From positions 62,001 to 126,000 of the forward strand of contig DUNO01000017.1 in NCBI GenBank assembly GCA_012839295.1: 64,000 nucleotides of DNA, in the 5' to 3' direction. This document shows positions 7,940-62,023 of the stretch, piece after piece. How positions within the stretch are numbered: the first letter of the stretch is position 1; every line of letters starts with the position of its first letter. Origin of the DNA: Clostridiales bacterium (GTDB lineage: Bacteria; Bacillota; Clostridia; Lachnospirales; Lachnospiraceae). The notes beneath the pieces are model-generated. The model saw nothing but the letters and a program-made list of their open reading frames with translations, made no database searches and had not been told where the DNA came from. Both the position numbers and the translations under genes were made by a program.

Positions 7940-10429
7940 CTATTCTATTCCTAATACTACCTCTTTTTTTGCGCATCCCTCTGCACTGATTGTTACACGG
8001 ATTTCTCCGGCTTCAAAGCCGGATCTGACTACCGCAAGAACATATCCGTCATATAGCTTCCAGGTATGGTTATCATAGGAATTCTCTGTTCCCGGATCGG
8101 CATTTCCCATCCCTTGCAGTGTTCCAGCGCCTTCTACGGTAACGCTCACCTCTCTGGCTTCCTGGAGATTGGGGGTTCCAGCCTCATCCTTCATGGAGAT
8201 CATGAGATAGGATAAATCAGCCCCATCTGCTTTCAGGACATTGCGGTCAACCTCTACACAGAGCTCGGTAGCTCCCCTTGCAGATTTCAAAACCGTCTTT
8301 TCCGCTTCCACTCCATTCCTATAATTTACCGCCTCTAATATGCCTGGTTCATATGTAGTCTCGAAGGAAGCATAGAAATCATGCTCCTCCCCTGCGCCTT
8401 TCCTGCCCAGTGAGACTCCATTTTTGTATAGCTCTACCTCCTCTGCATCGGAATAGACATTAACCACAGCACCCTTTCCTTCATACCCGTCCCAGGTCCA
8501 GCTTTCTAATTCATCCTTCCATGGCCAAGCACTCTGGTTTGGTTTTTCTCCGAAATGGTTCACCCGTTCCACCCCAATATATGGTTCCTTTCGAAGTCCA
8601 TAGACGATCTCCCTGTAATAGCTGATTGGGCGGCGGTTGCCGATAATATCGATATCACCCATGCCGGATAAGCTAATTGGCCAGTTCGTCATAAATCCCT
8701 GGCGGCCATCGTAATAAAAACAGCTGGAGCCGGCCTCGCCAAGATAATCGTATCCTGTCCAGGTCATATCCCCGATTACGTGTGAGTTGTTCTTTACAAT
8801 TCTCCAGAGACGGACCAGATCCGAGGGTAAGGTTTCCGTACCAAGGATCACACGGTGAGGGAACAATTCATGCTCCATCTCATGACGTGCAGTCAGGTAG
8901 TTATATCCGACCAGATCTGTAACGGATGCAAATTCATCCAACAGCCCTGTTACAATATGATTTGCCGCAAAGGCATCCGCCATCGGGCCTTTCATCAAAT
9001 CAGTACTGCCATTTGCCGCATCTACTCCGGCATCTGATTGGGGCGCCTGGGCCTGCATCTGCATCATCTGCTCCATGGTCATCCCTGTAATGTCGCTCAT
9101 AATTTCTCCCATATGTTCAATACAGGAGAGTAATCCATTGATGGCTACCGTTACATACCGGCTATCATCCAGGCTATGGAACTTTTCCGTGATCAGACGG
9201 TTTAACTGGGCACCCTTTGCTGAGGCTGCTTCCTGAATCTCATTACCGGACACATACATGATGACAGAGGGATGATTATAGTCCTTGGCAACCATCGCTT
9301 CTACATCCTCTTCCCAATAATCCGGGAATTTATTCGCATAGTCGTTATTATTTTTAGATCTGGTCCAAAAGTCCGCCAGCTCATCTAAGACTAACATGCC
9401 CTCCCTGTCACAAGCCCTAAGCATAGCTTCGCTCATAGGATGATGGGAGCTTCTCAAACAATTAAAGCCAGCTGCCTTTAGCTGCTGTACCCTTCTTTCC
9501 TCTGCCCTTTCCAGCGTTACGGCTCCAATCACACCGTTATCATGGTGGATACATGCTCCCCGGAGCTTTACCTCTTTTCCGTTTAGCCGGAACCCTTTCT
9601 TTGCGCTCAGTGCAATTTGCCGGATACCGAATTGCTCTATCGTTTCATCCAGGCATTCCTCATCCGTCATGACCCTTACAATACAGGTATAAAGGGAAGG
9701 TGCTTCACAGCTCCATAGCTCTGGATTTTCCACCTGGATTCTGGTACGGATATGCTCCTCGCCTTCGCCAAAGACAGTAACCGGGAGGGTTACATTTGCA
9801 ACCTCCTCTTCCCTTGAATTCTGTAGCATAATATGAACCCTTGTTTTTTTCTTTGAACGCTCCTGATTGGCCAGCTTCATGTATACTTCAACTGTTGCAA
9901 GATCATCATCTATCTCTTTAGTCCCTATACGGAGGCTGCCACTCTTAATATGGACCGGATTTGCCTCCAGCAAATATACATCCCGGTAAATGCCGCTGCC
10001 AGTGTACCACCGGCTGTTTTCCTCTGCTGAATTGTTTGCAATCACGGTTATGGTATTGCTTGCACCATAATTTAAGAAATCATCTGCGCAAATAAGGAAC
10101 CCCCGATAACCATTTGGGCAGCCTCCTGCATAATCTCCATTGATGTATACTCTTGCATTTTCATAAACGCCCTCGAATTCTATATGAATTGATTTTTTGC
10201 TCCATGCCTGGGGTGCTTCAAATACCTTCGTATAGGTATAGCATCCACCTGGATAAAACCCGGTTTGATGCTTGTTTTTTGTGCTCTCGGTCCGGGTCTC
10301 ATGTATCATCGCATCATGTGGAAGCGTTAACATTTCCACATCGGTCTGCATCCCCATCATAGCTGCCATCATCGGGTTATCGCCTGGTTTTGATACGGTC
10401 CAATCGCTGTTCCACTTTTTACTAATCAT
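7940..10429 (-). CDS. Glycoside hydrolase family 2 (beta-galactosidase-like), cytoplasmic
   Basis: The product is about 829 residues from the ATG at 10429, behind GGAGAGAG; an in-frame upstream start at 10459 lacks this signal. The layout is GH2: sugar-binding jelly roll (GGCYTYTKVFEAP, IHIEFEGVYENARVYING), immunoglobulin-like domain, TIM barrel starting LRGACIHHDNGVIG, then C-terminal beta domains. The acid/base Glu is E397 in SGNEIQ and the nucleophile is probably E532 in ILGTET. No signal peptide is seen, so it should act on imported oligosaccharides. It is the last gene of the sulfatase/rhamnosidase run. Exact specificity (beta-galactoside, beta-glucuronide or other) cannot be read from sequence. 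Confidence 0.87.
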   Translation of the reverse strand: MISKKWNSDWTVSKPGDNPMMAAMMGMQTDVEMLTLPHDAMIHETRTESTKNKHQTGFYPGGCYTYTKVFEAPQAWSKKSIHIEFEGVYENARVYINGDYAGGCPNGYRGFLICADDFLNYGASNTITVIANNSAEENSRWYTGSGIYRDVYLLEANPVHIKSGSLRIGTKEIDDDLATVEVYMKLANQERSKKKTRVHIMLQNSREEEVANVTLPVTVFGEGEEHIRTRIQVENPELWSCEAPSLYTCIVRVMTDEECLDETIEQFGIRQIALSAKKGFRLNGKEVKLRGACIHHDNGVIGAVTLERAEERRVQQLKAAGFNCLRSSHHPMSEAMLRACDREGMLVLDELADFWTRSKNNNDYANKFPDYWEEDVEAMVAKDYNHPSVIMYVSGNEIQEAASAKGAQLNRLITEKFHSLDDSRYVTVAINGLLSCIEHMGEIMSDITGMTMEQMMQMQAQAPQSDAGVDAANGSTDLMKGPMADAFAANHIVTGLLDEFASVTDLVGYNYLTARHEMEHELFPHRVILGTETLPSDLVRLWRIVKNNSHVIGDMTWTGYDYLGEAGSSCFYYDGRQGFMTNWPISLSGMGDIDIIGNRRPISYYREIVYGLRKEPYIGVERVNHFGEKPNQSAWPWKDELESWTWDGYEGKGAVVNVYSDAEEVELYKNGVSLGRKGAGEEHDFYASFETTYEPGILEAVNYRNGVEAEKTVLKSARGATELCVEVDRNVLKADGADLSYLMISMKDEAGTPNLQEAREVSVTVEGAGTLQGMGNADPGTENSYDNHTWKLYDGYVLAVVRSGFEAGEIRVTISAEGCAKKEVVLGIE

Positions 10430-10471
10430 TATCTCTCTCCTTCTTTTTACTGTTATCATGAAAATAAAATG

Positions 10472-12229
10472 CTAGAATGTACGGGAAGCCAGTATGGCAA
10501 AGTACTGGATCATCGGCCTGCTTTCTTCTGGTATCATCATTTCAATCACTTTAAACATGTGTGACGCGTTTATTTCATTTTCACTAGCAAGCTGTTTTAT
10601 GATACCATCAGCTGCTGACATTGCTTCCTTTGGTAAAAATCCCGCCATCGTGTGATATATGTTTGCTGCTCCTCTGTCCCAGGTTATATCAGACAGTGCT
10701 TCCGGAATCCTCTCCTTCTCCTCCCGCTCTCTTAACCGGCGGATATCATCCTCTGTCACCTTGCCTTCTGCCGGGAATCCATATCGCCCGTAACGCTCCG
10801 TTGGGCACTCATCCTGATGCATGATTTCAAGCATAGCATTAGCCATGATAGTTTCCTGTTTCAGGTTGTTCAGGTTATTCTCCTGCTTTGGATCCTCTGA
10901 TAACCGGAATAATTTCGTACCATAATTTGTATGGTCATTGCTTCCAAGCTGGGCTTTTTTGAGAATCTTCATCGTCCTGCATCCCTTTGTAAAGGAAAAA
11001 GGTTCCTGAAGGGATATATCCTGGAGTTCATTTACATTGAACCTGCTTACCATATGGGTCGGCATCAATGTATACTCATAGTATGGTTCATCGGCAATCG
11101 GCGCCTTCATATATACCCAGTCTCCGTCGGTAATATTACAGCTGTTTTCATGAAAACCAAACAAGGCATAGTCCCGAATTTTTTCATTCTTTTCAACCAC
11201 ATTGCGGAGTGTTTTTCCCTGCATATCCTTTGGTATTTCTAAATTGAAGAAATCCAAAAGGGTTGCCGGGATGTCGATTGTCTGTGTCAATTGGGACCGT
11301 CTCTCTCCACAGATCTTATTCCTTGGGTCATAGAGAAACATTGGCGTATGGCTGATCTCCTCATAGGTAGGCATAATCGATTTTGCCCACCAGCCGTGCT
11401 CTCCTAACAAAAATCCATGGTCCGTATTTACGATAAGCATGGTATCTTCCCAGAGATTGTACTGATCCATAAGATCCAGAACCTTGCCCAGGTAACGGTC
11501 GCACATGGTAATCAGTGCAGCATACTGGTTCCGCATATGGGCAACTGCATCCTCACCCTCTGTAACCACATAATAGGGCGGCCAGTCATGCAGCGGCCCC
11601 TCATATCCATCCGGAAACAGCTCCTGGTATTCCGGCTGTGTAAAAAATGGCTCATGGGGATCAAAGGTTTCTATCTGTAAGAACCAGTTATCCACATCAT
11701 GGAGCTTGTCAATAAACTCCAGCCCATCTGCAAAGGTAACTGCCTGTGGCATCTTCTCTTCACAATCCATATATTCACGGTTTGCCAGGTCATGGTAGTT
11801 TACCCGGCCAGGCATTTTATGTTCGTGGACGGCTTCCAGCAGCTCCTTATTATATTTCCACGTATCTCCCTCCTGGCCACGGCTAAAGGAATATGAATTA
11901 TAACGTGTATGGTAGGTAGCCCCACCATCCTGCCAATAATGATCGTGATCGGTGGTCAGGTGCGTATAGATACCATTATTTTTCAAAATTTCCGGCATCG
12001 AGTCGTCGAAAGGCTCAATAGGCCCCCAGCTGCGGTGTTCAAAATTGTATCTCCCTGTGTGTAATTCCCTGCGTGCAGGCATACAGGGAAGGCTTCCCAC
12101 ATAATTTCCGTCAAAAGTTACCGCATGCTCTGCTAACCGGCGAAAATTCGGAGTTTTTATCCAATCACAGCCGTAGGGTTCGAGCATCAGTCGGTTTAAA
12201 GAGTCATACATGACCATTATTGCTTTCAT
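10472..12229 (-). CDS. Sulfatase (formylglycine-dependent, CxPxR type)
   Basis: The 585-residue protein belongs to the alkaline-phosphatase-fold sulfatase family. The maturation motif is C49-M-P-A-R53 in SLPCMPARRELHTGR, where the cysteine becomes formylglycine. Metal-binding motifs include MYDS near the start and NTDHGF further on. It lacks a signal peptide and so would desulfate oligosaccharides inside the cell. It is one of three sulfatases in a row and 42 bases upstream of the GH2 gene. The anaerobic maturase (anSME) such a Cys-type enzyme needs is not in this window. Regiospecificity is unknown. Confidence 0.9.
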   Translation of the reverse strand: MKAIMVMYDSLNRLMLEPYGCDWIKTPNFRRLAEHAVTFDGNYVGSLPCMPARRELHTGRYNFEHRSWGPIEPFDDSMPEILKNNGIYTHLTTDHDHYWQDGGATYHTRYNSYSFSRGQEGDTWKYNKELLEAVHEHKMPGRVNYHDLANREYMDCEEKMPQAVTFADGLEFIDKLHDVDNWFLQIETFDPHEPFFTQPEYQELFPDGYEGPLHDWPPYYVVTEGEDAVAHMRNQYAALITMCDRYLGKVLDLMDQYNLWEDTMLIVNTDHGFLLGEHGWWAKSIMPTYEEISHTPMFLYDPRNKICGERRSQLTQTIDIPATLLDFFNLEIPKDMQGKTLRNVVEKNEKIRDYALFGFHENSCNITDGDWVYMKAPIADEPYYEYTLMPTHMVSRFNVNELQDISLQEPFSFTKGCRTMKILKKAQLGSNDHTNYGTKLFRLSEDPKQENNLNNLKQETIMANAMLEIMHQDECPTERYGRYGFPAEGKVTEDDIRRLREREEKERIPEALSDITWDRGAANIYHTMAGFLPKEAMSAADGIIKQLASENEINASHMFKVIEMMIPEESRPMIQYFAILASRTF

Positions 12230-12299
12230 TTTTCTTTTCCTCGCTTTCTTTACAAAGACAAGACTAACTGATCGTTCGTCTTATCCGCATCTTAATAAT

Positions 12300-13730
12300 T
12301 TAGCCAATATCCTCCCGGTCATACATCTTAATGATGTATGGATGGTTTTCATCATATTCCGTCAACGGCACAGGATTTTCTACCCTGCCAATTGGCCTGA
12401 CATTGTCCCCATAAAATCCTTTGGCCTGGTCTCCTAAATCCTGCCTGCATTCTGCCAGCATTTCTTGCATCCTCTCTACAATATCCGGATGGTCCTTCGA
12501 CACATCGTGCTCCTCTGCAACATCCTCTCTTAGATGATACAGCTCACACATGTCATCGAACTTTGTTTTAACTCCTTTTTCCATATGCTCCAGATCATAA
12601 TCATAGCCTGCAAATTCCCTCACCCGCAGCTTCCAGTCGCCCCACCTGACCCCATGTAAATCAAAGCCATAGTAATAATAAAAGGTATCCCTTGGGCTCT
12701 TGGCATTCTCATCAAATAAGAGGCTGCTAAAATCCATACCGTCTATTTTATTTTTGCTCTGATAATCGATTCCACACAATTTGGCAAAGGTAGGCAGAAA
12801 ATCAATTGAGGAAACAATATCCTTGCAGACACCCTTACGGATATGCCCCGGCCAATAGAACACGCAGGGTACACGCAAGCCGCCCTCCCAGGTGGTCAGC
12901 TTCGCACCCGAAAGGGGGGCATTGCTGCCTCCGTAGCGTGCATTACTTCCGTTATCCGATGTAAATATAACGATTGTATTGTCCGTAAGCCCTTGCTTCT
13001 CCAGCTCATGTAAAATACATTTGGTGGACCAGTCAATTTCTTCTACGCATGCCCCATAATCCCCATTCTGGGAGTTTTTCACAAATACCTCAGGCGCATA
13101 CAGCGGCAAATGGACATGCATATGTGCCATATACAGAAAAAATGGTCGGTCTTTGTTCTTACGGATGAATGAGGTCGCCCTTTCAACGTAGCGTTCCGTA
13201 AGGGAGCACTGATCGGGCTGCTCTTCAATAACCTCCGAATCCTCCATCAAAGGAAGCGGAACCTTTTTCCGGTGATGTGGTAAGTTAAATTTCTCATAAG
13301 GATCTTTTTGTACCCCTAAATCATTGCTGTATGGAAGACCATAGAATTCATCGAAGCCGTGGTCAAGCGGCAAAAATCCGGGCTGATCCCCACAATGCCA
13401 CTTTCCTATCAGCTTGGTACGATAGCCACCGCTTTTTAGGACATCTGCTATCGTGACCTCCGACTGGCTTAATCCCATCCCCTGTCCCGGGAAAAGTACG
13501 CCATTTCCTTCAAAGGTACCAAACCCGATCCGGGTCGGATAGCACCCGGTCATCATGGCACCTCTCGATGGCGTACATATTGGTGACGCCATATAAAAAT
13601 CCGTAAATAACAGCCCATTCTCCGCCATATGGTCGACGGCAGGTGTCCGGTTTAATTTTGAACCGTAGCACCCAATATCCCCATACCCTAAATCATCGCA
13701 GTTAATCAGAACAATGTTTGGTTTGCTCAT
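12300..13730 (-). CDS. Arylsulfatase-type sulfatase (formylglycine-dependent)
   Basis: The product is about 476 residues from the ATG at 13730, behind GGGAGG (a TTG two codons upstream is unlikely). It starts KPNIVLINCDDLGYGD, the typical metal-binding strand. The maturation site C-T-P-S-R lies in PICTPSRGAMMTG (Cys 52), and GKWHCG and FTSDNGS supply further active-site residues. This is the classical S1-type architecture, shorter and more canonical than the sulfatase downstream. No export signal is present. It shares orientation and close spacing (70 and 48 bases) with the flanking sulfatases, consistent with sequential removal of different sulfate esters. Confidence 0.92.
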   Translation of the reverse strand: MSKPNIVLINCDDLGYGDIGCYGSKLNRTPAVDHMAENGLLFTDFYMASPICTPSRGAMMTGCYPTRIGFGTFEGNGVLFPGQGMGLSQSEVTIADVLKSGGYRTKLIGKWHCGDQPGFLPLDHGFDEFYGLPYSNDLGVQKDPYEKFNLPHHRKKVPLPLMEDSEVIEEQPDQCSLTERYVERATSFIRKNKDRPFFLYMAHMHVHLPLYAPEVFVKNSQNGDYGACVEEIDWSTKCILHELEKQGLTDNTIVIFTSDNGSNARYGGSNAPLSGAKLTTWEGGLRVPCVFYWPGHIRKGVCKDIVSSIDFLPTFAKLCGIDYQSKNKIDGMDFSSLLFDENAKSPRDTFYYYYGFDLHGVRWGDWKLRVREFAGYDYDLEHMEKGVKTKFDDMCELYHLREDVAEEHDVSKDHPDIVERMQEMLAECRQDLGDQAKGFYGDNVRPIGRVENPVPLTEYDENHPYIIKMYDREDIG

Positions 13731-13778
13731 TTCCAACCTCCCTTTCCGCCGCTTCTTAATTATATTATCTTGGAGCCT

Positions 13779-15386
13779 CTATATTTCCTGCCAGAGCTTC
13801 ACACAATATGCCAACGCATCAGGCCATTCCACACCACCAGTCTTTAAATAATTCCGGACTTCCTCTTCCTTTCCTTTTGGGCAAAGGCCACGGATGAAGG
13901 TCCATGTCTGTTCCGGTGAGTTCCGTTCATCGAAATGCCTTGGCACAATATCACAGGTTCTCTGGTACCAGTTCAGCATCTCTGACTTCATCTCATACAG
14001 AAGCTCCTTATCTGCTGTACGGATGATATTATGGCGTTCTCCCGGATCCTTTTGCAGGTCATAAAGCTCATCCCTTCCAGAAGGGCGATGGACATATTTA
14101 AACCGTCCATCAAACATCATTGTTCCCTTCTCATGACAGTCGTCATCCTTTTGTGCGGTTACCTTCGGCCATATTTCCATGGAAGGGCTCGGCCCGTTTT
14201 CCCCCTTAGAATGCCACTCGTCACAATGGGTCTCCCCAGGATTCCTGCCGCCTTCACAGTATACATAATCCCTGTTTTTGGTACTGCGCTGTTCAATCAC
14301 AGGGCGAAGGGATCTGCCGAAATGAGTCTCAGAGGGCTCTATGCCTGCATAATCGAGTACTGTTGCATAGAAATCAATCAGTTCTGTTAAACTGTCCGAA
14401 ACACCGGAGTCTACCTTTTCTCCCTTCGGCGGTTTGATCAGTAATGGCACCCTGGTCAAGCAATGCTCAAAACTGTTCTGGGCTTTTTCAGTAAGATCAT
14501 AATCTCCTGCAAAATCCCCATGGTCTGACAAAATAAAGATAGCTGAATTGTCGTATTCTCCCGCCTCCTTCAAGGCATCGCAGACCATACCCACCATTTC
14601 ATCTACCATGGAACACTGGGCAAGATACACAGCCCGTAATTCATTCCATTCCTCTTCAGTTATCACTTCGTTGCCTGACAGTTCATGAATTTTCTGTACC
14701 ATCAGTGATTTGTCTGTACATTCATGAAAAGGGATTCTCTTTGCCAGCTTCTCATCGCGAATTAATTTTCTATACTTTTCTTCAACCCGGTATGTCGGAT
14801 GTGGATTCATCCAGCCCAAAAAAATACAATAAGGTTTATCAGGCTCCACCGGATGTTTGATCAGTTCAATAGCTCCCAATGTATGATCCAGATCCGGTCC
14901 TCCATTTTTACTTACTACACCTTCAAAGCAGGAATATGGATATTTTTTTTCATTTTTCTGTGGCATGTTCTGTGCCATGGTAAGAGGGTTTACCGGGGTA
15001 ATTTCTTTTTTCTTATCGTAAAAATATACCTCATCAGCATGTTTTTTTTCCAGACCCTCTATCTGCCCTGCATAAAGATCCCCCCTGCCATTCAGCCATA
15101 CATAATATCCCGCATCCTTCAGTTCAGAGAATAAGCTCTTCTCTTCTTCATGGAGTAAATAGCGCATGGTCCGGTGTCCTCTGGTATGGGGATACAGCCC
15201 TGTCAAAAATGAACAACGGCTTGGAACGCATACTGTATTTTGGCAAAAAGCATTGGAAAATGATACTCCCTCCTCCAAAGCTAATGTATCCAATCTTGGG
15301 GTATATGCAGCTTCATTTCCCAGATGTCCCATTGTATCAGCTCTCATTTCATCGGGATTAAGAATAATGATGTTAGGTTTCTTCAT
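13779..15386 (-). CDS. Sulfatase (formylglycine-dependent)
   Basis: The 535-residue protein starts KKPNIIILNPDEMRADTMG, a sulfatase metal-binding strand. The maturation motif is C53-V-P-S-R57 in TVCVPSRCSFLTG, and ILSDHGDFAGDY provides the second metal site. It lacks a signal peptide. Its ATG overlaps the stop of the upstream GH78 gene by four bases (ATGA), so translation of the two is coupled. That supports a shared pathway in which a rhamnoside and a sulfate ester of the same oligosaccharide are removed. It is unlike the other two sulfatases in sequence and probably differs in specificity. Confidence 0.92.
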   Translation of the reverse strand: MKKPNIIILNPDEMRADTMGHLGNEAAYTPRLDTLALEEGVSFSNAFCQNTVCVPSRCSFLTGLYPHTRGHRTMRYLLHEEEKSLFSELKDAGYYVWLNGRGDLYAGQIEGLEKKHADEVYFYDKKKEITPVNPLTMAQNMPQKNEKKYPYSCFEGVVSKNGGPDLDHTLGAIELIKHPVEPDKPYCIFLGWMNPHPTYRVEEKYRKLIRDEKLAKRIPFHECTDKSLMVQKIHELSGNEVITEEEWNELRAVYLAQCSMVDEMVGMVCDALKEAGEYDNSAIFILSDHGDFAGDYDLTEKAQNSFEHCLTRVPLLIKPPKGEKVDSGVSDSLTELIDFYATVLDYAGIEPSETHFGRSLRPVIEQRSTKNRDYVYCEGGRNPGETHCDEWHSKGENGPSPSMEIWPKVTAQKDDDCHEKGTMMFDGRFKYVHRPSGRDELYDLQKDPGERHNIIRTADKELLYEMKSEMLNWYQRTCDIVPRHFDERNSPEQTWTFIRGLCPKGKEEEVRNYLKTGGVEWPDALAYCVKLWQEI

Positions 15387-18178: not shown

Positions 18179-18198
18179 ATTATCATCCTTTCTTTGAT

Positions 18199-19197
18199 TT
18201 ACAAGGCTTCACAAAAGGCTACGGCACGTTCGATCCAGCCCTCCACATCAGTTCCACGCCCTTCGCCAAATCCATGCCCGCCTTTCTCGCCTTCCTCCAA
18301 CCGGACAGGGATGCCTTTTTCCTCCAATACCTCTTTTAGCCGTTCGGAATTTTTGCTTGGCACGACCGGATCATCCTTACAGCATACAATATAGCAGGGT
18401 GGGTAATCCCTGCCTACATGCTCATCCACATTGTATTCGCGCAGCTTTTCTTCACTATAATTTTTACCAAGCATCGTCTCGCAAAAGGTATTTGCTGACT
18501 TATCCTTATTAAAAAGCCTATTGGAAACAGCCGGATAAACAGGGAACATAGCCTTGGGCTTTGGCAAGCCATATGTAGCAAATCCATGGTTTTCCGTTCC
18601 CCAAAGGGAGGTAAGGTTTCCACCCGCAGAAAAACCACACACAATGTAATGCTTTGGATCAATTTTAAACTGATCTGCATGCTTTATTACATATTTTATT
18701 GCAGCTGCCAAGTCATCCAATGGTTTTGGCAGCAGTCCCTTTCCACCGGTACGATAAGTTAAGACGAAAGCAGGATATCCCAGTTCATTCAGCTTGGCGG
18801 CCACCGGATATGCCTCTACCATGGAGCAGACAGCGGTATAAGCTCCCCCAGCGCAAACCATTACAAAGGGCCTGCTCTTATCATTAGGAGCAATGGCTTT
18901 TTTCGGAGGGAAATAAATAATGTTTACATCCTTTTTCTTAGGGCCGCCTTGGCTCTCCTCTTGTGAATATACAGGATATAGGTAGTTGCCAGCCTTTGCC
19001 ACCTCTATGAGACGCTTAATTCCGTTCAATGTACTTTCTGCATTCCAACCAGCATTTTTTTCCAAGTTATCTAAGCTGGCATATGAGATCATTTGGGTAG
19101 CGAGTCCGCCACCGGAAATAAAATATGGTATAGCCTCTTTTAATTCCGGGATTTTCTTAATGTCCTTAACTAAAGTCTTTGATGTTATTTCTATCAT
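18199..19197 (-). CDS. Alpha/beta-hydrolase carbohydrate esterase-like, with N-terminal helical domain
   Basis: The 332-residue protein has an alpha/beta-hydrolase core with the nucleophile elbow GFSAGG and an oxyanion region VMVCAGGAY. The late KDDPVVP (acid) and GGHGFG (histidine) complete the triad, as in BD-FAE/acetyl-esterase enzymes that deacylate polysaccharides. Residues 1-72 (SKTLVKDIKKIPELKEAIPY and onward) form a separate helical module, reminiscent of DUF1858-like or the enzyme-tail domains seen elsewhere here. It has no signal peptide. Between GH78 and GH43 genes, it probably removes acetyl or other acyl groups from imported oligosaccharides; the substrate is inferred. Confidence 0.82.
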   Translation of the reverse strand: MIEITSKTLVKDIKKIPELKEAIPYFISGGGLATQMISYASLDNLEKNAGWNAESTLNGIKRLIEVAKAGNYLYPVYSQEESQGGPKKKDVNIIYFPPKKAIAPNDKSRPFVMVCAGGAYTAVCSMVEAYPVAAKLNELGYPAFVLTYRTGGKGLLPKPLDDLAAAIKYVIKHADQFKIDPKHYIVCGFSAGGNLTSLWGTENHGFATYGLPKPKAMFPVYPAVSNRLFNKDKSANTFCETMLGKNYSEEKLREYNVDEHVGRDYPPCYIVCCKDDPVVPSKNSERLKEVLEEKGIPVRLEEGEKGGHGFGEGRGTDVEGWIERAVAFCEAL

Positions 19198-19234
19198 TAC
19201 TACCTTTCTCCCTTCAATTCACTTATCCTCTCCC

Positions 19235-21016
19235 TTACACGACTTTCAAGCTATCACCTTCGGTTATACCCCTTTCATTAAAGGCATCAAGCCTCAGGTA
19301 AAGCGGCTGGTCTTTTATAATAGCGCCAAGATTCACCTGGCTTGTTCCAAATACCATATAGCTATGATAAAGCTTATCAGGCGAGTATCCCCAGACAACA
19401 TTAACGCCAACTGCATCGGAATCATCCCAGGATACCAAGAGGTCAAGGCCGGATAGGAATTTCGTCTTAATTCCCTTTGGTTTTTTCGGAAGCTCTCCTT
19501 CACCGATGCCAAACACCCTAAGACCTGATAGATTTGCATTCTGTCTATAGGGAAGTTCATTTACCGTACATCTAATATATCTTGCTTCGATCCCTTCTTC
19601 CCTGACAACCAGGTCATGGGATAAATCTGTATCGGCATCGGATTTATCTTCAATTACAAAATACTCTTTTCCGTCCAGGGAACCTTCTAATATCCATCTG
19701 GTATAGAGCTTTCTATCTTCGATATGCCGCTTTGAACTGGTGACATCCTGCAAGGCTACCCCTTCCGGGATTTGGATGTTCTCTATCTGATCAGCAAAAT
19801 TGATCTGAATGGCCCGGACATCACAGTTATGCTGTAAGTCTATCTCCAGCCATTCACCCGAATGATTGGTAGCAGCCCTCCACCAGGTCTGTACATTTTC
19901 ATCCGTTGCCTTGGAAGCATCCCTGCCTTCTTCAAAGGATGAGGCTTTTGCAGGCTTTTTGTAAGAGAGGAGCATCCACTCGGGAGCTGCCCATGGATCC
20001 ATGGTTCCCTGCACCATCCTCCTAGGCCAGTCACCATATCCTGTATTACAGAATAATTCGCCATCCTTGTCATAACCGGCAGGCCATAACCCGACCCGCC
20101 GTTCAAACTGTTGGTTCACACTGATCCTCATGGATGCTATGTGCCACAAGTTCCCGAACCTATCTTCGATTGTTGACCCGTGACCGGCACCGGGCAGAAA
20201 GCCACCCGGCTGATAAGAATAAGGATTGCTCCTTTGCAGGGTATAAGGCCCAAGAGGATGATCTGAGACATATACACCGTCTCCATAAACATTAAAATGA
20301 GTACCTGAGAAGGAATATTGTAAGTAATATCTGTTGTTATGCTTATTTATCCAGGCTCCCTCTATGTATGGATCATTACCGAAGTATTTCCGGATCATTT
20401 CCACCTGCTCCTCCGGTACCTCCGGCATAGTGCTTAAAAAGCCCTGAACCTTAGCCTCTATTTGTTCCGGCGTCTGAGGTGGGATATGGTTTTCTCCCGC
20501 CCGCTCAAATCCATATTCCCTAATATGGGCAGAAATGAGCTCCACTGGCTCGCTCTTTGGAGCCATATCCTCCGGGTTTAATTCTACCCCGTAAATCGGT
20601 GCTACATTGGAGCATCCCCAGAAAAGATAAATTCTGCTATCATCATCTGCAAATAAATTCGGATCCCAAAAAGGGAAGCTTCCCTTAATTTCCTCAAATT
20701 CGCTTTGAAAGGGATCCTTCGTCCGAAAAAAGGAACAGTTACCGGCATTGGATGCGGAAAAATAAAGGTAATCTCCGATGACGCATGCGTCCGGGGCATA
20801 ATCATAAACCGGAACATCCTTTAACGGATGAAATTCCCACTCCACAAGATCGTCGCTTGACAAAAAACCGCCGGCCATAGACGGAAATAACAAATACTTT
20901 CCTTTAAAGGATACTAAGGTTGGATCCGCAGCCTCCCTGGCTAGCGAAAGCTTTCCGTATTCATCGATAAACTGATATTTATACTCCATGCTGATTGGAT
21001 TGCATATATACTTCAT
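19235..21016 (-). CDS. GH43-like glycosidase with discoidin and Fn3-like C-terminal domains
   Basis: The 593-residue protein opens with a five-bladed propeller characteristic of GH43. Candidate catalytic residues are Asp in AREAADPTLV (base), Asp in FPFWDPNLFADDDS (pKa modulator) and Glu in DPYIEGAW (acid). From about residue 340, KASSFEEGRDASKATDEN and the following segment look like an F5/8 type C (discoidin) carbohydrate-binding domain. The last 80 residues (SGLDLLVSWDDSDAVGVNVV) resemble fibronectin type III. There is no signal peptide. GH43 enzymes typically remove xylose, arabinose or galactose. It lies between an esterase and another GH43 in the sulfatase locus. Confidence 0.83.
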   Translation of the reverse strand: MKYICNPISMEYKYQFIDEYGKLSLAREAADPTLVSFKGKYLLFPSMAGGFLSSDDLVEWEFHPLKDVPVYDYAPDACVIGDYLYFSASNAGNCSFFRTKDPFQSEFEEIKGSFPFWDPNLFADDDSRIYLFWGCSNVAPIYGVELNPEDMAPKSEPVELISAHIREYGFERAGENHIPPQTPEQIEAKVQGFLSTMPEVPEEQVEMIRKYFGNDPYIEGAWINKHNNRYYLQYSFSGTHFNVYGDGVYVSDHPLGPYTLQRSNPYSYQPGGFLPGAGHGSTIEDRFGNLWHIASMRISVNQQFERRVGLWPAGYDKDGELFCNTGYGDWPRRMVQGTMDPWAAPEWMLLSYKKPAKASSFEEGRDASKATDENVQTWWRAATNHSGEWLEIDLQHNCDVRAIQINFADQIENIQIPEGVALQDVTSSKRHIEDRKLYTRWILEGSLDGKEYFVIEDKSDADTDLSHDLVVREEGIEARYIRCTVNELPYRQNANLSGLRVFGIGEGELPKKPKGIKTKFLSGLDLLVSWDDSDAVGVNVVWGYSPDKLYHSYMVFGTSQVNLGAIIKDQPLYLRLDAFNERGITEGDSLKVV

Positions 21017-21175
21017 ATCACATTCTCCTGTTTGCTTTTTATTACTTACTTAAATCACATATTTTCTATCATTGGATATTTTTCTTTCCATTCAATAATG
21101 TTTCCTAGGAAGATATAAAAACATACCTTTTTCCCATTCTTACTACGAATATGTGGAATGAATTCCTGCTCATTT

Positions 21176-22810
21176 TTAACCTTCAATTGGTACATAAGAA
21201 TACCAGTCAAAGGCAGCATACTTTTCCTTTGTTTCCGTGACGCCGCTGGCAAACATACCGATATATGCACCTACAAAGCCTCCAGCTGTTTCAGAGCCTA
21301 AGAAGCCTCCATCCACATTTTCACATACAGCTACCAGCTGTTCTTTGCTGGTTCCGGCATAGAAGCTGTAATTTGTTTCATTCCCTTTAATTTTTAAATA
21401 TATCGCAGGTTTATCCTTCGTCATATTGACTTCTACGCTTCCATGGCATTCTTCCTTGTAATATTGCCTCTCTTCCTTGACCAGCAGCTTTGTCGAAACA
21501 CACTTGACACATGGATCACCTTTTTCATTCAGGCAGCATTCCAGCCGAAGCTGGTGCGCATCATTTTGTAATACAACAAGACCGGCGTGTTCCGATTCTT
21601 CCGGAAGGAACACCAGCTTAACCATTACCTCAAAGCTCTTATGCTGTTGCCTTCTGCCCAAAAAGCTGACACATTCCTTCGTTTTGCCTATCAGAAGATA
21701 CTTTTCATAAAAGCTTGTGCCGATTCCATCAAGCTCCCAGGGAGTTATTTGCTTCTTGAGAAGCTTTAGCATAAGGCAGCTGTCCTGTAGCTTTACGAAG
21801 TCCTCATAGGGAGTTCCAAGGAAGTTCCACTCCATTCCAAGCTTATCCCCATCAAAGTGATCCAATACTACAGCCCGCTTCTCCTTTGTACCATTGACAG
21901 GAAGGCTTTCCGGACTCGGATAGCTCAGCTCCACCTTACCCGTACCATAGCTGACAACCGGCCATCCATCCTCCCAGGTTACCGGAGTAATAAAGGTTTC
22001 CCTCCCCATAATTTTATGGTATCCGCCCATTAACCTTGATCCCAGCATCACCATATACCAAGAGCCATCCTTCAGCTCAACAAGATCCCCATGACCGACA
22101 TTGCAGATAGGGTAATTTTTGCCCAGATGCCTGTGTGTCAATATTGGATTTCCTTCGAAACCTTCATATTCTCCCATAACCTCTTTACTTCTGCTGATCG
22201 TAATCGCATGATAATGTTCCGTGCCACCCTCTGAAATCATCAGATAATACCAGCCGTCTTTTTTATAGATATGGGGACCCTCCGGAGAAGCTGCATTCTT
22301 TAAAGCTCCCGCCCAAAGAACTTTACGTTCTCCGACCAATTCCATCTTTTTCAGATCAATCTCACTGCACCATACTCCGGGTTCTTCGCCATATCCTGCC
22401 GAACCTGTATAATATACTTTGCCATCATCATCAAAAAACAGGGATGGATCAATACCTACCGCCCCTTCGATTACATGCAGCTCCGACCAGGGACCTTTCG
22501 GATCTTTTGCTGTTACAATAAAATTCTTGCCCTGCATGGATGCATTTGTGGTTATCATATAATAGGTACCCTCGTGATAACGGATTGTAGGGGCAAAGAT
22601 TCCGCCCGAGATCATTTCATAGGTAAGGGACAGCTGGCTTTCCCTGTCAAGAACATGTCCAATCTGCTCCCAATGTGCCAGATCCCTGCTATGAAAAATG
22701 GGAACTCCCGGAAAAAAGCTAAAGCTGGATGTGACCATATAAAAATCATCTTCTACCCTTACAATTGACGGATCCGGATAAAACCCGGATAAAATTGGAT
22801 TTGTTAACAT
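21176..22810 (-). CDS. GH43 beta-xylosidase/alpha-L-arabinofuranosidase-like enzyme
   Basis: The 544-residue protein starts NPILSGFYPDPSIVRVEDDF, the hallmark of XynB-type GH43 with the base Asp in DPS. Further active-site residues lie in GIDPSLFFDDDG and in AASPEGPH (acid Glu). A C-terminal beta-sandwich of about 200 residues (DHFDGDKLGMEWNFLGTP onward) is typical of the two-domain subfamilies 11/12. It lacks a signal peptide and would act on short xylose- or arabinose-containing oligosaccharides. A probable promoter lies far upstream (23089-23116), giving a long leader. The 159-base gap to the next gene shows nothing clear. Confidence 0.88.
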   Translation of the reverse strand: MLTNPILSGFYPDPSIVRVEDDFYMVTSSFSFFPGVPIFHSRDLAHWEQIGHVLDRESQLSLTYEMISGGIFAPTIRYHEGTYYMITTNASMQGKNFIVTAKDPKGPWSELHVIEGAVGIDPSLFFDDDGKVYYTGSAGYGEEPGVWCSEIDLKKMELVGERKVLWAGALKNAASPEGPHIYKKDGWYYLMISEGGTEHYHAITISRSKEVMGEYEGFEGNPILTHRHLGKNYPICNVGHGDLVELKDGSWYMVMLGSRLMGGYHKIMGRETFITPVTWEDGWPVVSYGTGKVELSYPSPESLPVNGTKEKRAVVLDHFDGDKLGMEWNFLGTPYEDFVKLQDSCLMLKLLKKQITPWELDGIGTSFYEKYLLIGKTKECVSFLGRRQQHKSFEVMVKLVFLPEESEHAGLVVLQNDAHQLRLECCLNEKGDPCVKCVSTKLLVKEERQYYKEECHGSVEVNMTKDKPAIYLKIKGNETNYSFYAGTSKEQLVAVCENVDGGFLGSETAGGFVGAYIGMFASGVTETKEKYAAFDWYSYVPIEG

Positions 22811-23088
22811 TTTTTATACTCCTTTTCAATTGATACAAATTCTATTTAACCTCTCAAGTAACAATGCGGATTATGAATTTCCTCTTTGGCTAAAGCTTAA
22901 GGATTGCCTAAAAACCTTATAAGCTACGCTGTATTTTATTAATATTCTAAGCTTTCTGCCCAGCCTTATATATAAAAGATTTGTTATTTTTTATATATTT
23001 TCAACTATAGTCGTATTTATTTATAGTAAAAACTATGAATTCACGTGAACACCCCCAATTTCAAACACTTGTTGGAACTTATAATTTT

Positions 23089-23116
23089 ATTATAATATTA
23101 GTAAAACAAGTATCAA
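23089..23116 (-). promoter_or_regulatory. Probable promoter with long leader before the GH43 gene
   Basis: On the minus strand, TTGATA (23116-23111), a 16-base spacer and TATAAT (23094-23089) form a good sigma-A promoter. Transcription would start near 23082, leaving a leader of about 270 bases before the GH43 start at 22810. The leader is AT-rich with a short dyad (AAAGCTTA / TAAGCTTT) but matches no riboswitch I know. This covers most of the 440-base gene-free stretch 22811-23250. Confidence 0.55.
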
Positions 23117-23191
23117 CCATCAATATTTCTATATCTGTTGGAATTTAAGTGACCAGGAAAGAAACTGAAGGAAAAGCCCTTTATCCTGTTT

Positions 23192-23250
23192 ATGAATAAA
23201 TGAAGGGATCCTGCTATAATCAAACAAGCAGGATCCCTTCATTTATTCAT
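23192..23250 (-). terminator. Long hairpin terminator after the GPH transporter gene
   Basis: Arms 23192-23215 and 23227-23250 are perfectly complementary over 24 bp with an 11-base loop, directly abutting the stop codon of the transporter. It probably separates the transporter/GH78 transcript from the GH43-to-GH2 transcript downstream. Confidence 0.8.
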
Positions 23251-24621
23251 TTACTTCTTATTGCTTTCTTTCTCATCCCTTCTGGCTTTGAGAGTGGTAA
23301 TAACTTCTTCCAATTTGTGCTTATTAATATTGTATCCCAGGATAAAGATGATACCCGCTATTACGGTAAATACTGCCGGAACTATGATAGTTACCGCGAT
23401 AATGCCAAGCCTTGCACTGGGACTTTGTTCCTGGTGCGCAACATATCCTGTTGCTGCTAATACATAGCCTGGAATGGCACCGCCAATTCCTCCGGCAGCC
23501 TTGGCAACAAAGGAATTCAAGGAAGCCAGTGCCCCTTCCGCACGTATTCCCTTCTTATATTCAATATAGTCAATATTATCAGCCTGAATTGCAAATGCAT
23601 TTGTCATCATGGCACCGCCGGAGATACCTACTATGACCGCACTGATATAATACAGCGGCACGGAGGTTACTGCTAGTAGCCTTATCAAGCCGGCAGCTCC
23701 TGCCAAGATAAACGTTCCACTGTATAAGGCCTTCTTACCCAGCTTATTTGTTAATTTTTGTCCTATGAACATACCTATGAACATGGTAAGCATCTGAATC
23801 AAGCCCACAACACTTAATACCTCAAGCTTATTATCCAGAATATAAGTGGCAAAGAAAATATTGACGGAACTCGATCCGGTAGTGCCAATACTATAGATCA
23901 GTACTGTCAAAAATGTAGTCAGCACCGGTCTTTGCAGCAGCATTGGAATAACATCCTTAATTTTATATTTTTCTTCCTCAATGGGCTGTACCCTTTCCTT
24001 TACCCCCAATACCCCTATAATGGAAAAGGCCAGGGCAACCACCGTACCTCCCACGATTAATGCTGCATATCCGGCAAAGCCACCTCCAAAGCCCTTTAAA
24101 ACTAATGGGCCAACAGACATTACAATAATTGAGCCTGCCATAATACAAGCCCCTTTTATTGTACTTAAGGACGCTCTTTCCTTCATATCAGATGTCATAA
24201 CCGGCAACAGCGAATTCAAAGGAATATCCATCATATCAAAGCTTATTCCAATCAATAGATATGTAATATATACGATCACCAGTTTTATGCCTGGGAACAT
24301 GATCGGCCCGAACCATAAGAGCAAATAATTAATGGAGCATACAATAACCCCGATCAATAAATAGGGGCGGAATCTTCCCATTTTCGACTTTGGCAGGTGA
24401 TCAATGATAAATCCCATAATGGGGTCATTAACACCATCTAAAACCCTGGCTATAATAAATAAAGTTGCAACGGCTGCCGGATCTATTCCCGCAATATCCG
24501 TATAGAAAATCAATAGAAAGCTTCCAATCAATGTCATAATCGGGAGATTTCCCAGATTCGCTAAACCAAATGCCATTTTCTCCCCAACACGAATTCTATT
24601 TGGATTGTCTTTGTTACTCAT
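23251..24621 (-). CDS. GPH-family sugar/cation symporter (MelB-like)
   Basis: The product is about 456 residues from the ATG at 24621, which has GGGAGG seven bases upstream; an earlier in-frame ATG at 24636 has no such signal. The N-terminal RIRVGEKMAFGLANLG and the loop ARVLDGVNDPIMG followed by SKMGRFRPYLL are signatures of the glycoside-pentoside-hexuronide family. About 12 membrane segments are visible. It imports glycosides or oligosaccharides with a cation. Between two GH78/GH43 groups, it is the likely uptake route for the products that the cytoplasmic enzymes degrade. Confidence 0.9.
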   Translation of the reverse strand: MSNKDNPNRIRVGEKMAFGLANLGNLPIMTLIGSFLLIFYTDIAGIDPAAVATLFIIARVLDGVNDPIMGFIIDHLPKSKMGRFRPYLLIGVIVCSINYLLLWFGPIMFPGIKLVIVYITYLLIGISFDMMDIPLNSLLPVMTSDMKERASLSTIKGACIMAGSIIVMSVGPLVLKGFGGGFAGYAALIVGGTVVALAFSIIGVLGVKERVQPIEEEKYKIKDVIPMLLQRPVLTTFLTVLIYSIGTTGSSSVNIFFATYILDNKLEVLSVVGLIQMLTMFIGMFIGQKLTNKLGKKALYSGTFILAGAAGLIRLLAVTSVPLYYISAVIVGISGGAMMTNAFAIQADNIDYIEYKKGIRAEGALASLNSFVAKAAGGIGGAIPGYVLAATGYVAHQEQSPSARLGIIAVTIIVPAVFTVIAGIIFILGYNINKHKLEEVITTLKARRDEKESNKK

Positions 24622-24694
24622 CGTATTGCCTCCCATAAATAATTTTTTATTTTCGCATATGCCTGCGCATATACTGTAACATCATCCTTCTCAA

Positions 24695-27367
24695 TTAATG
24701 GATCAAGCAAGAATACTCATAGTGACCGCTGCCGACTGCATAGGCTGTTCCGTCCGGCAGGATAATGTCCGCTGTTGTATTGCATGGAATCTTAACACTC
24801 AGATGGAAGGTTCCATTCTCCTTTCGCCAATCGGAAACGATATCACCGTATTCGCTGCTGAAGGTTCGCTTCGCCCATTGCATCCTCTCATCCGGCTGAG
24901 GATGTATCATAATATGTTTATAACCAGGACGGCTCTTATCAATGCCATTGACATATCGAAAGATCCAATCATCCACACATCCAAAGGCGTAATGATTCAA
25001 GCTCATAGTAAATACCATATCCCCAAGGCTGGAGCAAAACGGCGTACCATCCTCTGCAAGAGCATACCAGCTCTCCCAAATCGTTGTTGCACCATGCTGT
25101 ACCTCATACAGCCAGGATGGCGCTTTCTCCTGATATAAGAGCTCATACGCCAAATCAACCCTTCCAATTTTGCACAATGCATCCTGTAATATCGGGGTGC
25201 CTAAAAAGCCCGTATCCAGGCACCCCCCGTTATCCTTCAGAATTTGCACAAGCCTGTCTGCAAAAAGCTGCTTATGCTGTTCCGGTACCAAGCCATAATA
25301 AATCGACATAGCATATGCACCCATAAGCTCAGCCGGCATTCTGCCGTCCTCCCGGATGACTCCCTTACCGTAAGCATCCTTGATCTTTTCGGCCATATCC
25401 TTATAATAGGCAGCATCCTCCGCTTTCTTTAATACCCCGGCGATTTCAGACAAGGAGGACACACTGTAGTAAGCATAAATCGGCGCAACATACTGCTGGG
25501 AGATACGGATAGCCTCGTAGGTTCCTTCCCCATAGCCATCCTTTGAATAACTGGGAATCAGGTGTTCCCCATAATGGAATCCCGAATTCCACAGATACTG
25601 CTCCACCTCATCCGGAAGGCTGCTTTCAGGCGGACGCCGGTTTTTTGCCGTGCGAAGAACATAATCGCACCAGCTCTTCATGGATTTATATTGTTCCTGA
25701 AGGATCCGGGTGTTCCCTGTTACCTGGTACATATAGTAAGGAACTAATACCGCAGCATCACTCCAGCCGGCGGAGCTAACCTCTCCCGGCAGATTATATT
25801 GCTGCTCATATCCCTTCTCCAGGCCAATCCAAGCGCCGGCATTGGGTACCACACATGGAACAGAGCCATTGTCCCTCTGCTCAATCGCCAGATTCTTAAG
25901 CCATCTCGTCAGGAACGGAGTTACGTCCTCATTCAACAGGGCTGTGGTAGTATATACCTGGATATCCCCTGTCCAGCCGGCTTTTTCCCGCTGAGGGCAG
26001 TCCGTCGGGATGGAAAGCATATTGGCACGCTGCGACCAGCGGGTATTTTCATATAAGCGGTTAACATCCTGATTAGAGCACTCAAAGGTTCCTGTATTTT
26101 CTTTTTCAGAGCTAATTACGACAGCCGTAAAATCCTCCGGATTAATTGCCTCCAGGCCGGAAACCTGCACGTAACGAAAGCCGTGAAACGTAAAATATGG
26201 CTCATAAACCGATGGATTGCCATCAGAGATATATACGACCCTCTGATCGGCAGTAGGGTTATTGATAAAGAAATTCCCATCCTTATCAAGGCCTTCCGTA
26301 TGCTCCAAAGTAATGGCCTGACCCTTTGGGGCATGAACCCGGAAGCGGACCCGGCCGGCAATGACCTGCCCAAAATCCAGAATATGCTCTCCTTTTGGGG
26401 AGACAGCCGCTGCGACTACCGGTAATGTCATAACAGGCCTTACGGGCTGCCCATATTGTGCCTTCAAGTTCTTATAACCATGATCAGCCAATCTGCCCTC
26501 CTGCCAGTTAGTATCGTCATATCCGGGCACATCCCAGCCATGCGGAATCAGGTTTGCATCAAAGCACTCTCCGGCGTAGAGATCAGAGAAGCGGACCGGC
26601 CCCTCCGATACCTTCACGGTTTCATCAGAAACCACCGTTTCCCGGGTTCCGTTATCGTACTCCACTTCTATCTGCAGTAAAATGGCGTGGGCAGGATTAT
26701 AGTCATCTGCAACGGTCTTGCTCATATAACAGTGGTACCAGCCATCACCTACATACATGCCAACCACATTCTCGCCGTCTTCCAGCAATGAGGTGACATC
26801 ATAAGTCTGGTAACTCAGATAATCACGGTATACGGTAAATTCAGGAGCAAATTCACGGTCGTCCGGACGCTTACCATTCACTGTCAAACGGTATATACCA
26901 TGACAGGTCGCATATAGTCTTGCCTTGACAACCTTACCCTTAAGCCGAAATGCTTTCCGAAACATCGACGCACAGGGCTGTTCAGAAAAATGCATAGCTC
27001 TTTCAAAGGTGTCCAAGGGTGATTCTACCCATTTGGCTACCCATTCAGACTCTTCAAGAAATGCGCTCTCAAATATGGAATTTGCCGAGGCTTCATTTCC
27101 ATAGTTATCAGTTACAGTGACCGTCCATTGGTAAGTAGTTCTACTTTGTAGTGGCGTTCCTTCATAGGGAACAAAGGCAGAGGTACCTGATTCTACCCTT
27201 CCTGTATCCCAAACAATCCCTCCTTCCTGATCGGTTACGGTGATTTGATAGGCTGCTTGCATTACATCACACTGGTCACTTTCAATGATCCAGGAGAAGT
27301 ACGGTATACTGTCAATACCAAGCGGTTTCTTCATGTTCAGACATCTTAGTTTGCTTAAACGTATCAT
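24695..27367 (-). CDS. Alpha-L-rhamnosidase (GH78)
   Basis: The product is about 890 residues from the ATG at 27367, directly behind AAAGGAGGA; a longer frame begins at 27421. The GH78 pattern is clear: beta-sandwich N domains (TVNGKRPDDREFAPEFTVYR), a second sandwich (PYFTFHGFRYVQVSG), and the alpha-barrel hallmark IPTDCPQREKAGWTGDIQVY. There is no signal peptide and no added helical tail. It is 73 bases upstream of the GPH transporter on the same transcript and divergent from an AraC regulator, so import and hydrolysis of a rhamnoside are probably co-regulated. Confidence 0.9.
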   Translation of the reverse strand: MIRLSKLRCLNMKKPLGIDSIPYFSWIIESDQCDVMQAAYQITVTDQEGGIVWDTGRVESGTSAFVPYEGTPLQSRTTYQWTVTVTDNYGNEASANSIFESAFLEESEWVAKWVESPLDTFERAMHFSEQPCASMFRKAFRLKGKVVKARLYATCHGIYRLTVNGKRPDDREFAPEFTVYRDYLSYQTYDVTSLLEDGENVVGMYVGDGWYHCYMSKTVADDYNPAHAILLQIEVEYDNGTRETVVSDETVKVSEGPVRFSDLYAGECFDANLIPHGWDVPGYDDTNWQEGRLADHGYKNLKAQYGQPVRPVMTLPVVAAAVSPKGEHILDFGQVIAGRVRFRVHAPKGQAITLEHTEGLDKDGNFFINNPTADQRVVYISDGNPSVYEPYFTFHGFRYVQVSGLEAINPEDFTAVVISSEKENTGTFECSNQDVNRLYENTRWSQRANMLSIPTDCPQREKAGWTGDIQVYTTTALLNEDVTPFLTRWLKNLAIEQRDNGSVPCVVPNAGAWIGLEKGYEQQYNLPGEVSSAGWSDAAVLVPYYMYQVTGNTRILQEQYKSMKSWCDYVLRTAKNRRPPESSLPDEVEQYLWNSGFHYGEHLIPSYSKDGYGEGTYEAIRISQQYVAPIYAYYSVSSLSEIAGVLKKAEDAAYYKDMAEKIKDAYGKGVIREDGRMPAELMGAYAMSIYYGLVPEQHKQLFADRLVQILKDNGGCLDTGFLGTPILQDALCKIGRVDLAYELLYQEKAPSWLYEVQHGATTIWESWYALAEDGTPFCSSLGDMVFTMSLNHYAFGCVDDWIFRYVNGIDKSRPGYKHIMIHPQPDERMQWAKRTFSSEYGDIVSDWRKENGTFHLSVKIPCNTTADIILPDGTAYAVGSGHYEYSCLIH

Positions 27368-27560
27368 GCTCTCTCTTCCTCCTTTGCTAATGCAATAATA
27401 GCTTAGCTTTTCATGCGCCATTCCACAATGTAGTAACTCGACTTATGAAATAGTGAATTGTTCTATTACGACTTTAGATCCGTGAAACACATTTACTTTT
27501 GGTGTTGGGTTTGCTATCATAACATTGATAAAAGGAATGTTGCTGAAGGAGCTGTTAAAA

Positions 27561-39507: not shown

Positions 39508-39694
39508 AGTATAAATACCTCCTTAGCAGATAGCTTATAAACTTATTGGAATTTCACAGTTCTATTATAATGGGCTACCAAGGGATATATCAATCAACAA
39601 ACAGGAAGGATCTGTTGGGAATTAGATATAAAGATAATCCGTACTCCCCAGTCAGATCGTTCCCTGCGCCTATTCGTGCTTAGCATAAGCAGCA

Positions 39695-43426: not shown

Positions 43427-43543
43427 AACAATTCTCCTCTCAATTCGCTTTTGTTCGTAAGTAATTGCGAAGCCCAATAACTGCCGTTATTTTTCATTGA
43501 CTATACAGCTTCGCAATTGACAGAGCCTAGATTAGCCGGGAAT

Positions 43544-59840: not shown

Positions 59841-59920
59841 AGTTTTCCCTCCTCGTGTTATTCAATGAAAACAAATCCAGAGCTTTCGATTAATCTATCA
59901 GCCATATGCGTCTCCTTTGG

Positions 59921-61995: not shown

Positions 61996-62023
61996 ACTCT
62001 CTCCTTCCTGATAGATCCAACTT

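Follow-up and report, generated by a model that had tools for sequence, protein, structure and literature searches.

We analyzed a window of 64,000 nucleotides (positions 62,001 to 126,000 of contig DUNO01000017.1, assembly GCA_012839295.1) from a Gram-positive bacterium of the Lachnospiraceae that probably lives in the gut. The window lies on contig C16; the whole assembly comprises 6.36 Mb in 82 contigs. Ten minus-strand genes at 7940-27421 form an operon-like block encoding sulfatases, rhamnosidases, further glycoside hydrolases, an esterase, and a symporter. On balance, the block probably serves the breakdown, in the cytoplasm, of short glycosides that are O-sulfated, likely also O-acylated, and that bear rhamnose, xylose or arabinose as the pentose, and perhaps galactose. 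The evidence consists of the gene content and layout, a sulfatase-rhamnosidase linkage kept in three genera, a sulfatase-maturing enzyme (anSME) in the same genome, and the relationship of a helical C-terminal module on one rhamnosidase to the C-termini of flavin mononucleotide (FMN)-binding glucuronidases.

Every named gene of the block scored above its Pfam family cut-off (NCBIfam was also run), which bore out the inventory of the original prediction, made from the sequence alone: three Cys-type sulfatases, two GH78, two GH43, one GH2, an esterase, and a GPH transporter on one strand. That prediction also placed the start correctly at 7940, while its end at 27367 corresponds to an ATG inside the last gene, which extends to 27421. 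With increasing coordinates, the genes encode a beta-galactosidase-like GH2 with a Glyco_hydro2_C5 domain (7940-10459), the Cys-type S1 sulfatases Sulf1 (10472-12229), Sulf2 (12300-13736, TTG start), and Sulf3 (13779-15386), the alpha-L-rhamnosidase GH78a (15383-18178) with the C-terminal helical module (15386-15619), an alpha/beta-hydrolase esterase (18199-19197), a divergent GH43 with an F5/8 type C domain (GH43F, 19235-21016), a second GH43 with a beta-xylosidase C-terminal domain (21176-22810), a GPH cation symporter of the MelB/GusB type (23251-24636), and a second alpha-L-rhamnosidase, GH78b (24695-27421). A divergently transcribed AraC-family protein (27525-28673, plus strand) presumably regulates the locus. 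The intergenic gaps are -4 (the overlap of Sulf3 with GH78a), 12, 20, 37, 42, 58, 70, 159, and 440 nt, the largest preceding the GPH gene. As claimed earlier, no obvious signal peptide was seen in the nine enzymes: by hydropathy, a crude measure of secretion signals, the best 12-residue stretch within the first 45 residues scored at most 1.2, compared with 2.6 for a lipoprotein substrate-binding protein encoded in the window.

The three sulfatases each combine a Pfam sulfatase domain with a C-x-P-S/A-R-x4-TG formylglycine stretch (CMPARRELHTG in Sulf1, CTPSRGAMMTG in Sulf2, and CVPSRCSFLTG in Sulf3), and C49, P51, A52, and R53 of Sulf1 were invariant in an alignment of nine sequences. The original prediction had proposed a genome search for anSME, and one of six matches, on contig C2, exceeded the cut-off (386.7 bits versus 349.45). 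The genome contains 23 sulfatase matches, two of them weak and partial, and five of the 23 fall inside 24.7 kb of C16, against a chance expectation of about 0.09. Outside the window, two sulfatases lie 5.5-9.8 kb before its start. Matches of Sulf1 were weak (GlcNAc-6-sulfatase and phosphonate hydrolases). Sulf2 was nearest to arylsulfatase A, steryl-sulfatase, GalNAc-6-sulfatase, and carrageenan sulfatases, and an AlphaFold model of Sulf3 (pLDDT 81) best matched BT1918_S1_46 (7oz8), from a host-glycan study, with a carrageenan enzyme also leading. These matches would suit a locus acting on mucin or glycosaminoglycans (GAGs), with Sulf2 and GH2 trimming the sulfated galactose-type sugars of either, and excerpts of one study describe CAZyme-rich Hungatella and Eisenbergiella as confirmed mucin foragers with mucin-type sulfatases (PMC13236585). 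Such a host-glycan function is nevertheless very unlikely, as Pfam and NCBIfam found no hexosaminidase family in the locus. We also know of no role in mucin or GAG degradation for two GH78 and two GH43 enzymes.

The remaining enzymes suggest which sugars would be removed. GH2 matched NCBIfam GalB at 456 bits, under its cut-off of 900, had 7rsk and 6b6l as its best PDB chains along with beta-galactosidases, and contains the NE and TET motifs; a glucuronidase motif pattern matched no protein, true glucuronidases included, and is uninformative on this GH2. The domain order and conserved acidic stretches of GH78 are present. We take the DCPQRDERLGYTGD and TIWE stretches of GH78a to be catalytic, and the counterpart of the former in GH78b is the variant DCPQREKAGWTGD. 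The second GH43 matched beta-xylosidase 5z5d and arabinofuranosidases. The esterase (BD-FAE/Abhydrolase_3, GFSAGG motif, extra N-terminus of ~80 residues) gave general matches only, and the symporter matched TIGR00792 at 303.4 bits (cut-off 231.35).

Linkage of sulfatase and rhamnosidase genes is kept in three genera. Relatives of Sulf1 (E ≤ 1e-60) occur in 14 of 200 family genomes, the source genome included. In one genome (G148), the counterparts of GH43F, Sulf3 (77%), and GH78a (66%) are contiguous, with their order kept and their frames overlapping; in another (G179), GH78a (59%) adjoins Sulf1 (80%), and GH2 (80%), GH43F (61%), and GH78b (64%) lie within ~30 kb. An anSME above the same cut-off is encoded within ~7 kb of Sulf1 in G148 (386 bits), G179 (380 bits), and a further genome, G110 (406 bits). 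In contrast to this linkage, the two halves of the locus also occur apart. GH43F homologs (E ≤ 1e-80) were found in 28 of 397 family genomes, the source genome included, and we read 20 further loci (two in the source genome, the others in 18 of the remaining 27), leaving out the sulfatase-bearing loci of the window, G179, and G148. Like the present locus, these contain GPH (13 of 20), AraC (12), and GH78 (10), accompanied by GH1 (8; this label was checked by Pfam for one protein), GH2 (6), GH3 (5), and a carbohydrate esterase (1). Unlike it, they contain no recognized sulfatase (0 of 20, compared with three here), and eight encode an FMN-type glucuronidase that is absent here; one GH2 from these loci matched the FMN-binding glucuronidase 7kgz at 1134.6 bits.

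Sulf1 and Sulf3, elsewhere accompanied by LacI and GPH, form a set that is also found without the glycoside hydrolases. One such set, with Sulf1 and Sulf3 paralogs, LacI, GPH, and a SASA-type esterase nearby, lies 4-10 kb before the window in the source genome (L010:10227-15971), and this Sulf1-LacI-Sulf3-GPH arrangement has counterparts in other genera. No GH78 was recognized beside it in the stretches read from two other genomes (G018 and G046) and from L010. Around 20 Sulf3 places in 14 of 397 genomes, for which flanks of ~1.5 kb were read, Sulf1 was present in six, GPH in five, and anSME in two. Loci of the best 80 of 579 confirmed Sulf1 relatives were labeled by local BLAST, 71 of the 80 having an ORF labeled Sulf1 and many being cut by contig ends to less than the requested 10 kb flanks; the labels included anSME (16), GH3d (11), GPH2 (10), LacI (8), and Sulf3 (8). 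Clustering the unlabeled neighbors and reading their first residues, without a Pfam scan, revealed no recurrent sugar-specific enzyme beside Sulf1. Because GH43F loci and Sulf1/Sulf3 sets occur separately, the locus looks like two conserved sets joined, and the likeliest description is a glycoside set (GH78, GH43F, GPH, and AraC) united with a separately traveling sulfatase set.

The original prediction put ulvan forward while rightly keeping other substrates open, and ulvan is possible but unsupported. The block resembles the ulvan locus of Formosa agariphila in its GH78, GH43, and several S1 sulfatases; excerpts of PMC9549685 describe a polysaccharide utilization locus with eight sulfatases of five S1 subfamilies, GH43_10 used for xylose, an enzyme named P36_S1_25|GH78 that offers a precedent for coupling Sulf3 to GH78a, and a pathway whose first steps fall to a lyase and GH105 or GH88. 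In contrast, the present locus, in which no lyase or GH105 was found, has no obvious signal peptides, imports by GPH if our reading holds, and includes no specific sulfatase match. In line with the original prediction, no directly linked lyase was found: Pfam and NCBIfam identified no lyase family among the ten locus proteins, although the genome as a whole was not searched with PL24/25/28/37/40 models. The same searches found no GH105 or GH88 in the locus. Six PF07470 (GH88/GH105-type) matches lie elsewhere in the genome, strong on contigs C79 and C46 and weaker on C35, and the nearest GH88-like gene (1.6 kb beyond the window end) and heparinase-like gene are more than 34 kb off. GH2 is present as predicted but, being beta-galactosidase-like, does not point to ulvan.

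A narrower form of the ulvan proposal is that fragments with sulfated rhamnose, xylose, and uronic acid, released from ulvan by other bacteria, are imported and finished inside. Rhamnose, xylose, and sulfate would all fit, and Bacillota metagenome-assembled genomes (MAGs) from Kyphosus fish carry fucoidan and agar CAZymes largely without signal peptides and were suggested, in excerpts of PMC11077953, to scavenge breakdown products. The sequence matches of Sulf3 were led by 7oz8, 4upi, the iota-carrageenan 2-sulfatase 6pt4, and, in fourth place, the ulvan sulfatase 6hhm, with 6hr5 eleventh, so that ulvan-type structures take two of the first eleven places. By structure, however, the S1_7 enzyme 6hhm ranked 18th at 24% identity, similar to the higher-ranked host-glycan, carrageenan, and choline sulfatases (all ~20-24%), and none of the locus sulfatases resembles ulvan enzymes more than it does others. 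The listed Sulf1 relatives (best 80 of 579) come from Bacilli, Clostridia, Paenibacillus, Streptomyces, Chloroflexi, Spirochaetes, Planctomycetota, and Lokiarchaea; judged from record names and without a tally, some belong to MAGs with marine-sounding names, but most have no obvious marine connection (Bacillus-group, Paenibacillus, Streptomyces, and gut and termite MAGs). No locus enzyme match singles out or excludes ulvan, and a literature search joining sulfatase, rhamnosidase, ulvan, and Lachnospiraceae found nothing. With no lyase or GH105/GH88 family found in the locus and Sulf3 no nearer to 6hhm than to other sulfatases, imported ulvan oligosaccharides seem an improbable substrate.

The module of GH78a comprises ~75 residues past the GH78 C-terminal domain that carry no Pfam name. 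Iterated profiles recovered tails of this type on GH3, GH2, and GH140-like proteins, and 22 such tails matched no consistent Pfam family (13 families, one member each, E ≥ 0.016). Their profile matched the C-termini of glucuronidases 7kgz (2.8e-26), 8ges, 8get, and 6mvh (~4e-12), 6mvg (1.7e-7), and 6mvf (0.0095), of which 7KGZ is Rh3 GUS and 6MVH is Rh2 GUS, both FMN-binding; beta-glucosidases 7ms2 and 8j9f were also matched. Because this profile contains GH78 tails, a separate profile-profile test was made, in which hhalign aligned eight GH78 tails to 24 other tails with 96.4% and an E-value of 1.1e-9 over 73 columns, while 100 column shuffles reached at most 2.3%. By these profile comparisons, the tail of GH78a and the C-terminus of FMN-binding glucuronidases are homologous. 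An HMM built from GH2 and GH3 tails only was clear for the tail (58059-58280, minus strand) of a GH140-like protein outside the locus (58056-59840; 24.6 bits, 0 of 952 shuffles) and for an esterase tail (42.7 bits, 0 of 996). Six esterases in other genomes end in the module (one checked by Pfam). The source genome holds 15 module places at E ≤ 0.5, six of which are in the profile by construction; the other nine comprise GH2 on C56, GH3 on C81 and C34, and GH78 on C36, all at 0.002 or better, GH78 on C57 and C25 at only 0.04-0.06, and three short ORFs. With the source genome counted in both cases, 54 of 200 genomes from the family and nine of 398 from across the phylum contain the module.

A model of the module predicts short helices (pLDDT 86.8). 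Foldseek returned nothing at E < 1, the best rows being 2k5e, 2k53, and the tails of 7ms2 and 9lql. The likeness to 2k5e (E 1.5) and 2k53 (E 4), which we take to be DUF1858 proteins, is weak and a lead only, and identity with DUF1858 (PF08984) was not established by hhalign (12.9% and 14.3%, 21 columns); a literature search on DUF1858 and glycoside hydrolases yielded nothing beyond Lactobacillus genome work. Two other candidates for the module were rejected: the N-terminus of the esterase looks alike by eye but gave 1.6% in hhalign (two-sequence alignment), and the ~95-residue C-terminal tail of Sulf1 (10475-10774, minus strand) gave 0.5%. This Sulf1 tail is present in 15 of the listed relatives (best 80 of 579), as judged by alignments reaching residue 560 or beyond, and the others lack it.

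The resemblance of GH78a to the FMN-binding gut beta-glucuronidases (7kgz, 6mvh, and 6mvg) is confined to the module, as the catalytic domain is GH2 there and GH78 here; likewise, the module is seen in solved structures of beta-glucosidases 7ms2 (GH3, C. thermocellum) and 8j9f/9lql, whose catalytic domains differ from that of GH78a. Excerpts of PMC9377255 report that truncating Rh2GUS after residue 644, a cut that would also remove the module, lowered mycophenolate-glucuronide hydrolysis eightfold, and locate the C-terminal domain outside the active site, where it might act as a gate. In excerpts of PMC8748916 (2022), the C-terminal domain of Rh3 is critical for triclosan-glucuronide, mobile, not resolved, and ~150 residues long, and the FMN lies ~30 Å from the active site; the ~75-residue module is therefore only part of that domain. 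No description of the module outside glucuronidases was found in the literature searched, which is no proof of absence. Nothing else in the locus is as unusual as the shared tail, which points, weakly, to small glycosides over polymers. As a tentative proposal, which we hold to be somewhat doubtful, the module might serve as a transferable gate over the active site, attached within one bacterial family to cytoplasmic enzymes of five families or more (GH2, GH3, GH78, GH140-like, and alpha/beta-hydrolase esterase) and adapting them to bulky small glycosides, with the locus as one product, a pathway for a sulfated rhamnosyl glycoside. If this is true, the C-terminal domain of drug-reactivating glucuronidases would be one case of a wider device, and the shared tail would predict which other gut enzymes carry it.

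The module also bears on a plant glycoside with a hydrophobic aglycone (a saponin or flavonoid), partly sulfated by plant or host, from which GH78, GH43, GH2, and the esterase would remove rhamnose, xylose or arabinose, galactose, and acetyl groups. Some plant saponins bear this set of substituents, the enzymes look intracellular, the GH78a tail is related to a glucuronidase C-terminus important for drug glucuronides, and homologous loci combine GH43F and GH78 with FMN-type glucuronidase and GH1. Three sulfatases are nonetheless many for a glycoside conjugate, and the presence of the module on GH3 beta-glucosidases means that it is no proof of an aglycone. We therefore consider this alternative unlikely, though it deserves weight.

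Several observations weigh against a single locus for sulfated rhamnosides with a glucuronidase-like tail. The module also terminates ordinary GH3 enzymes, and five of the eight GH78 tail rows in the profile-profile test had been found with a mixed profile of both tail kinds. The GH2- and GH3-only HMM gave the GH78a tail 4.3 bits, and 25 of 993 shuffles were equal or better; as this HMM does not separate it from shuffles, the membership of GH78a depends on the profile-profile comparison. Linkage of sulfatase to rhamnosidase is rare: a GH78 lies beside Sulf3 in two of 20 places (the window and G148) and was recognized in none of the Sulf1 loci (best 80 of 579), many of which were cut by contig ends, and the sulfatases therefore need not act on rhamnose. 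None of the sulfatases could be given a subfamily, identity to the best-ranked solved enzymes being ~20-24%. Finally, of the promoter-like sites in the region, the best (23116-23089) falls within the 440-nt gap and could divide the locus in two, although promoter-like sites were no commoner than in shuffled sequence.

From the lack of obvious signal peptides, the GPH symporter, anSME, and the three-genus linkage, we infer import and intracellular degradation of a sulfated rhamnose substrate, as originally predicted. In the pathway we favor, the AraC protein would sense the substrate and the GPH symporter would bring it in intact. In the cytoplasm, the Cys-sulfatases, matured by anSME, would strip sulfate, the esterase would take off acyl groups, and GH78a, GH78b, both GH43 enzymes, and GH2 would remove sugars one at a time. 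If Sulf3 and GH78a work in sequence, at least one sulfate would lie on or beside a rhamnosyl residue. The GH78a tail is probably at the active site, as proposed for the homologous FMN-binding glucuronidase tail, a position that would suit oligosaccharides or glycosides with an aglycone better than polymers. If a Gram-positive bacterium does couple a sulfatase to a rhamnosidase, this would indicate a sulfated rhamnoside in the diet or environment, not necessarily seaweed ulvan, and the locus provides defined enzymes with which to find it.

Other regions of the genome contain related genes. On contig C35 (7.7-30.5 kb), four sulfatase matches, one a fragment, and a GH88-type match lie within 23 kb, a better candidate than the present locus for degradation of lyase products or GAGs. 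A second sugar locus spans the end of the window (58056-63970) and the adjoining stretch (L011:73-9550) and encodes the GH140-like protein, a broken GH2, a heparinase II/III-like protein, GPH, and GH88-like and GH106-like proteins, perhaps for a uronate-containing substrate. Its GH2 gene (59921-62082) is split over three frames (ORFs 59921-60721, 60687-61673, and 61627-62082), with GH2 domains confirmed on two pieces, and is therefore a pseudogene or an assembly error. Decayed genes are perhaps also represented by 38891-39409, which resembles the middle of a GH3, and by a short frame at 39340-39522, which resembles the module of the GH140-like protein. A T-box leader (RF00230, 128.8 bits; 43572-43816, minus strand) lies directly upstream of an aminotransferase gene (42212-43477).

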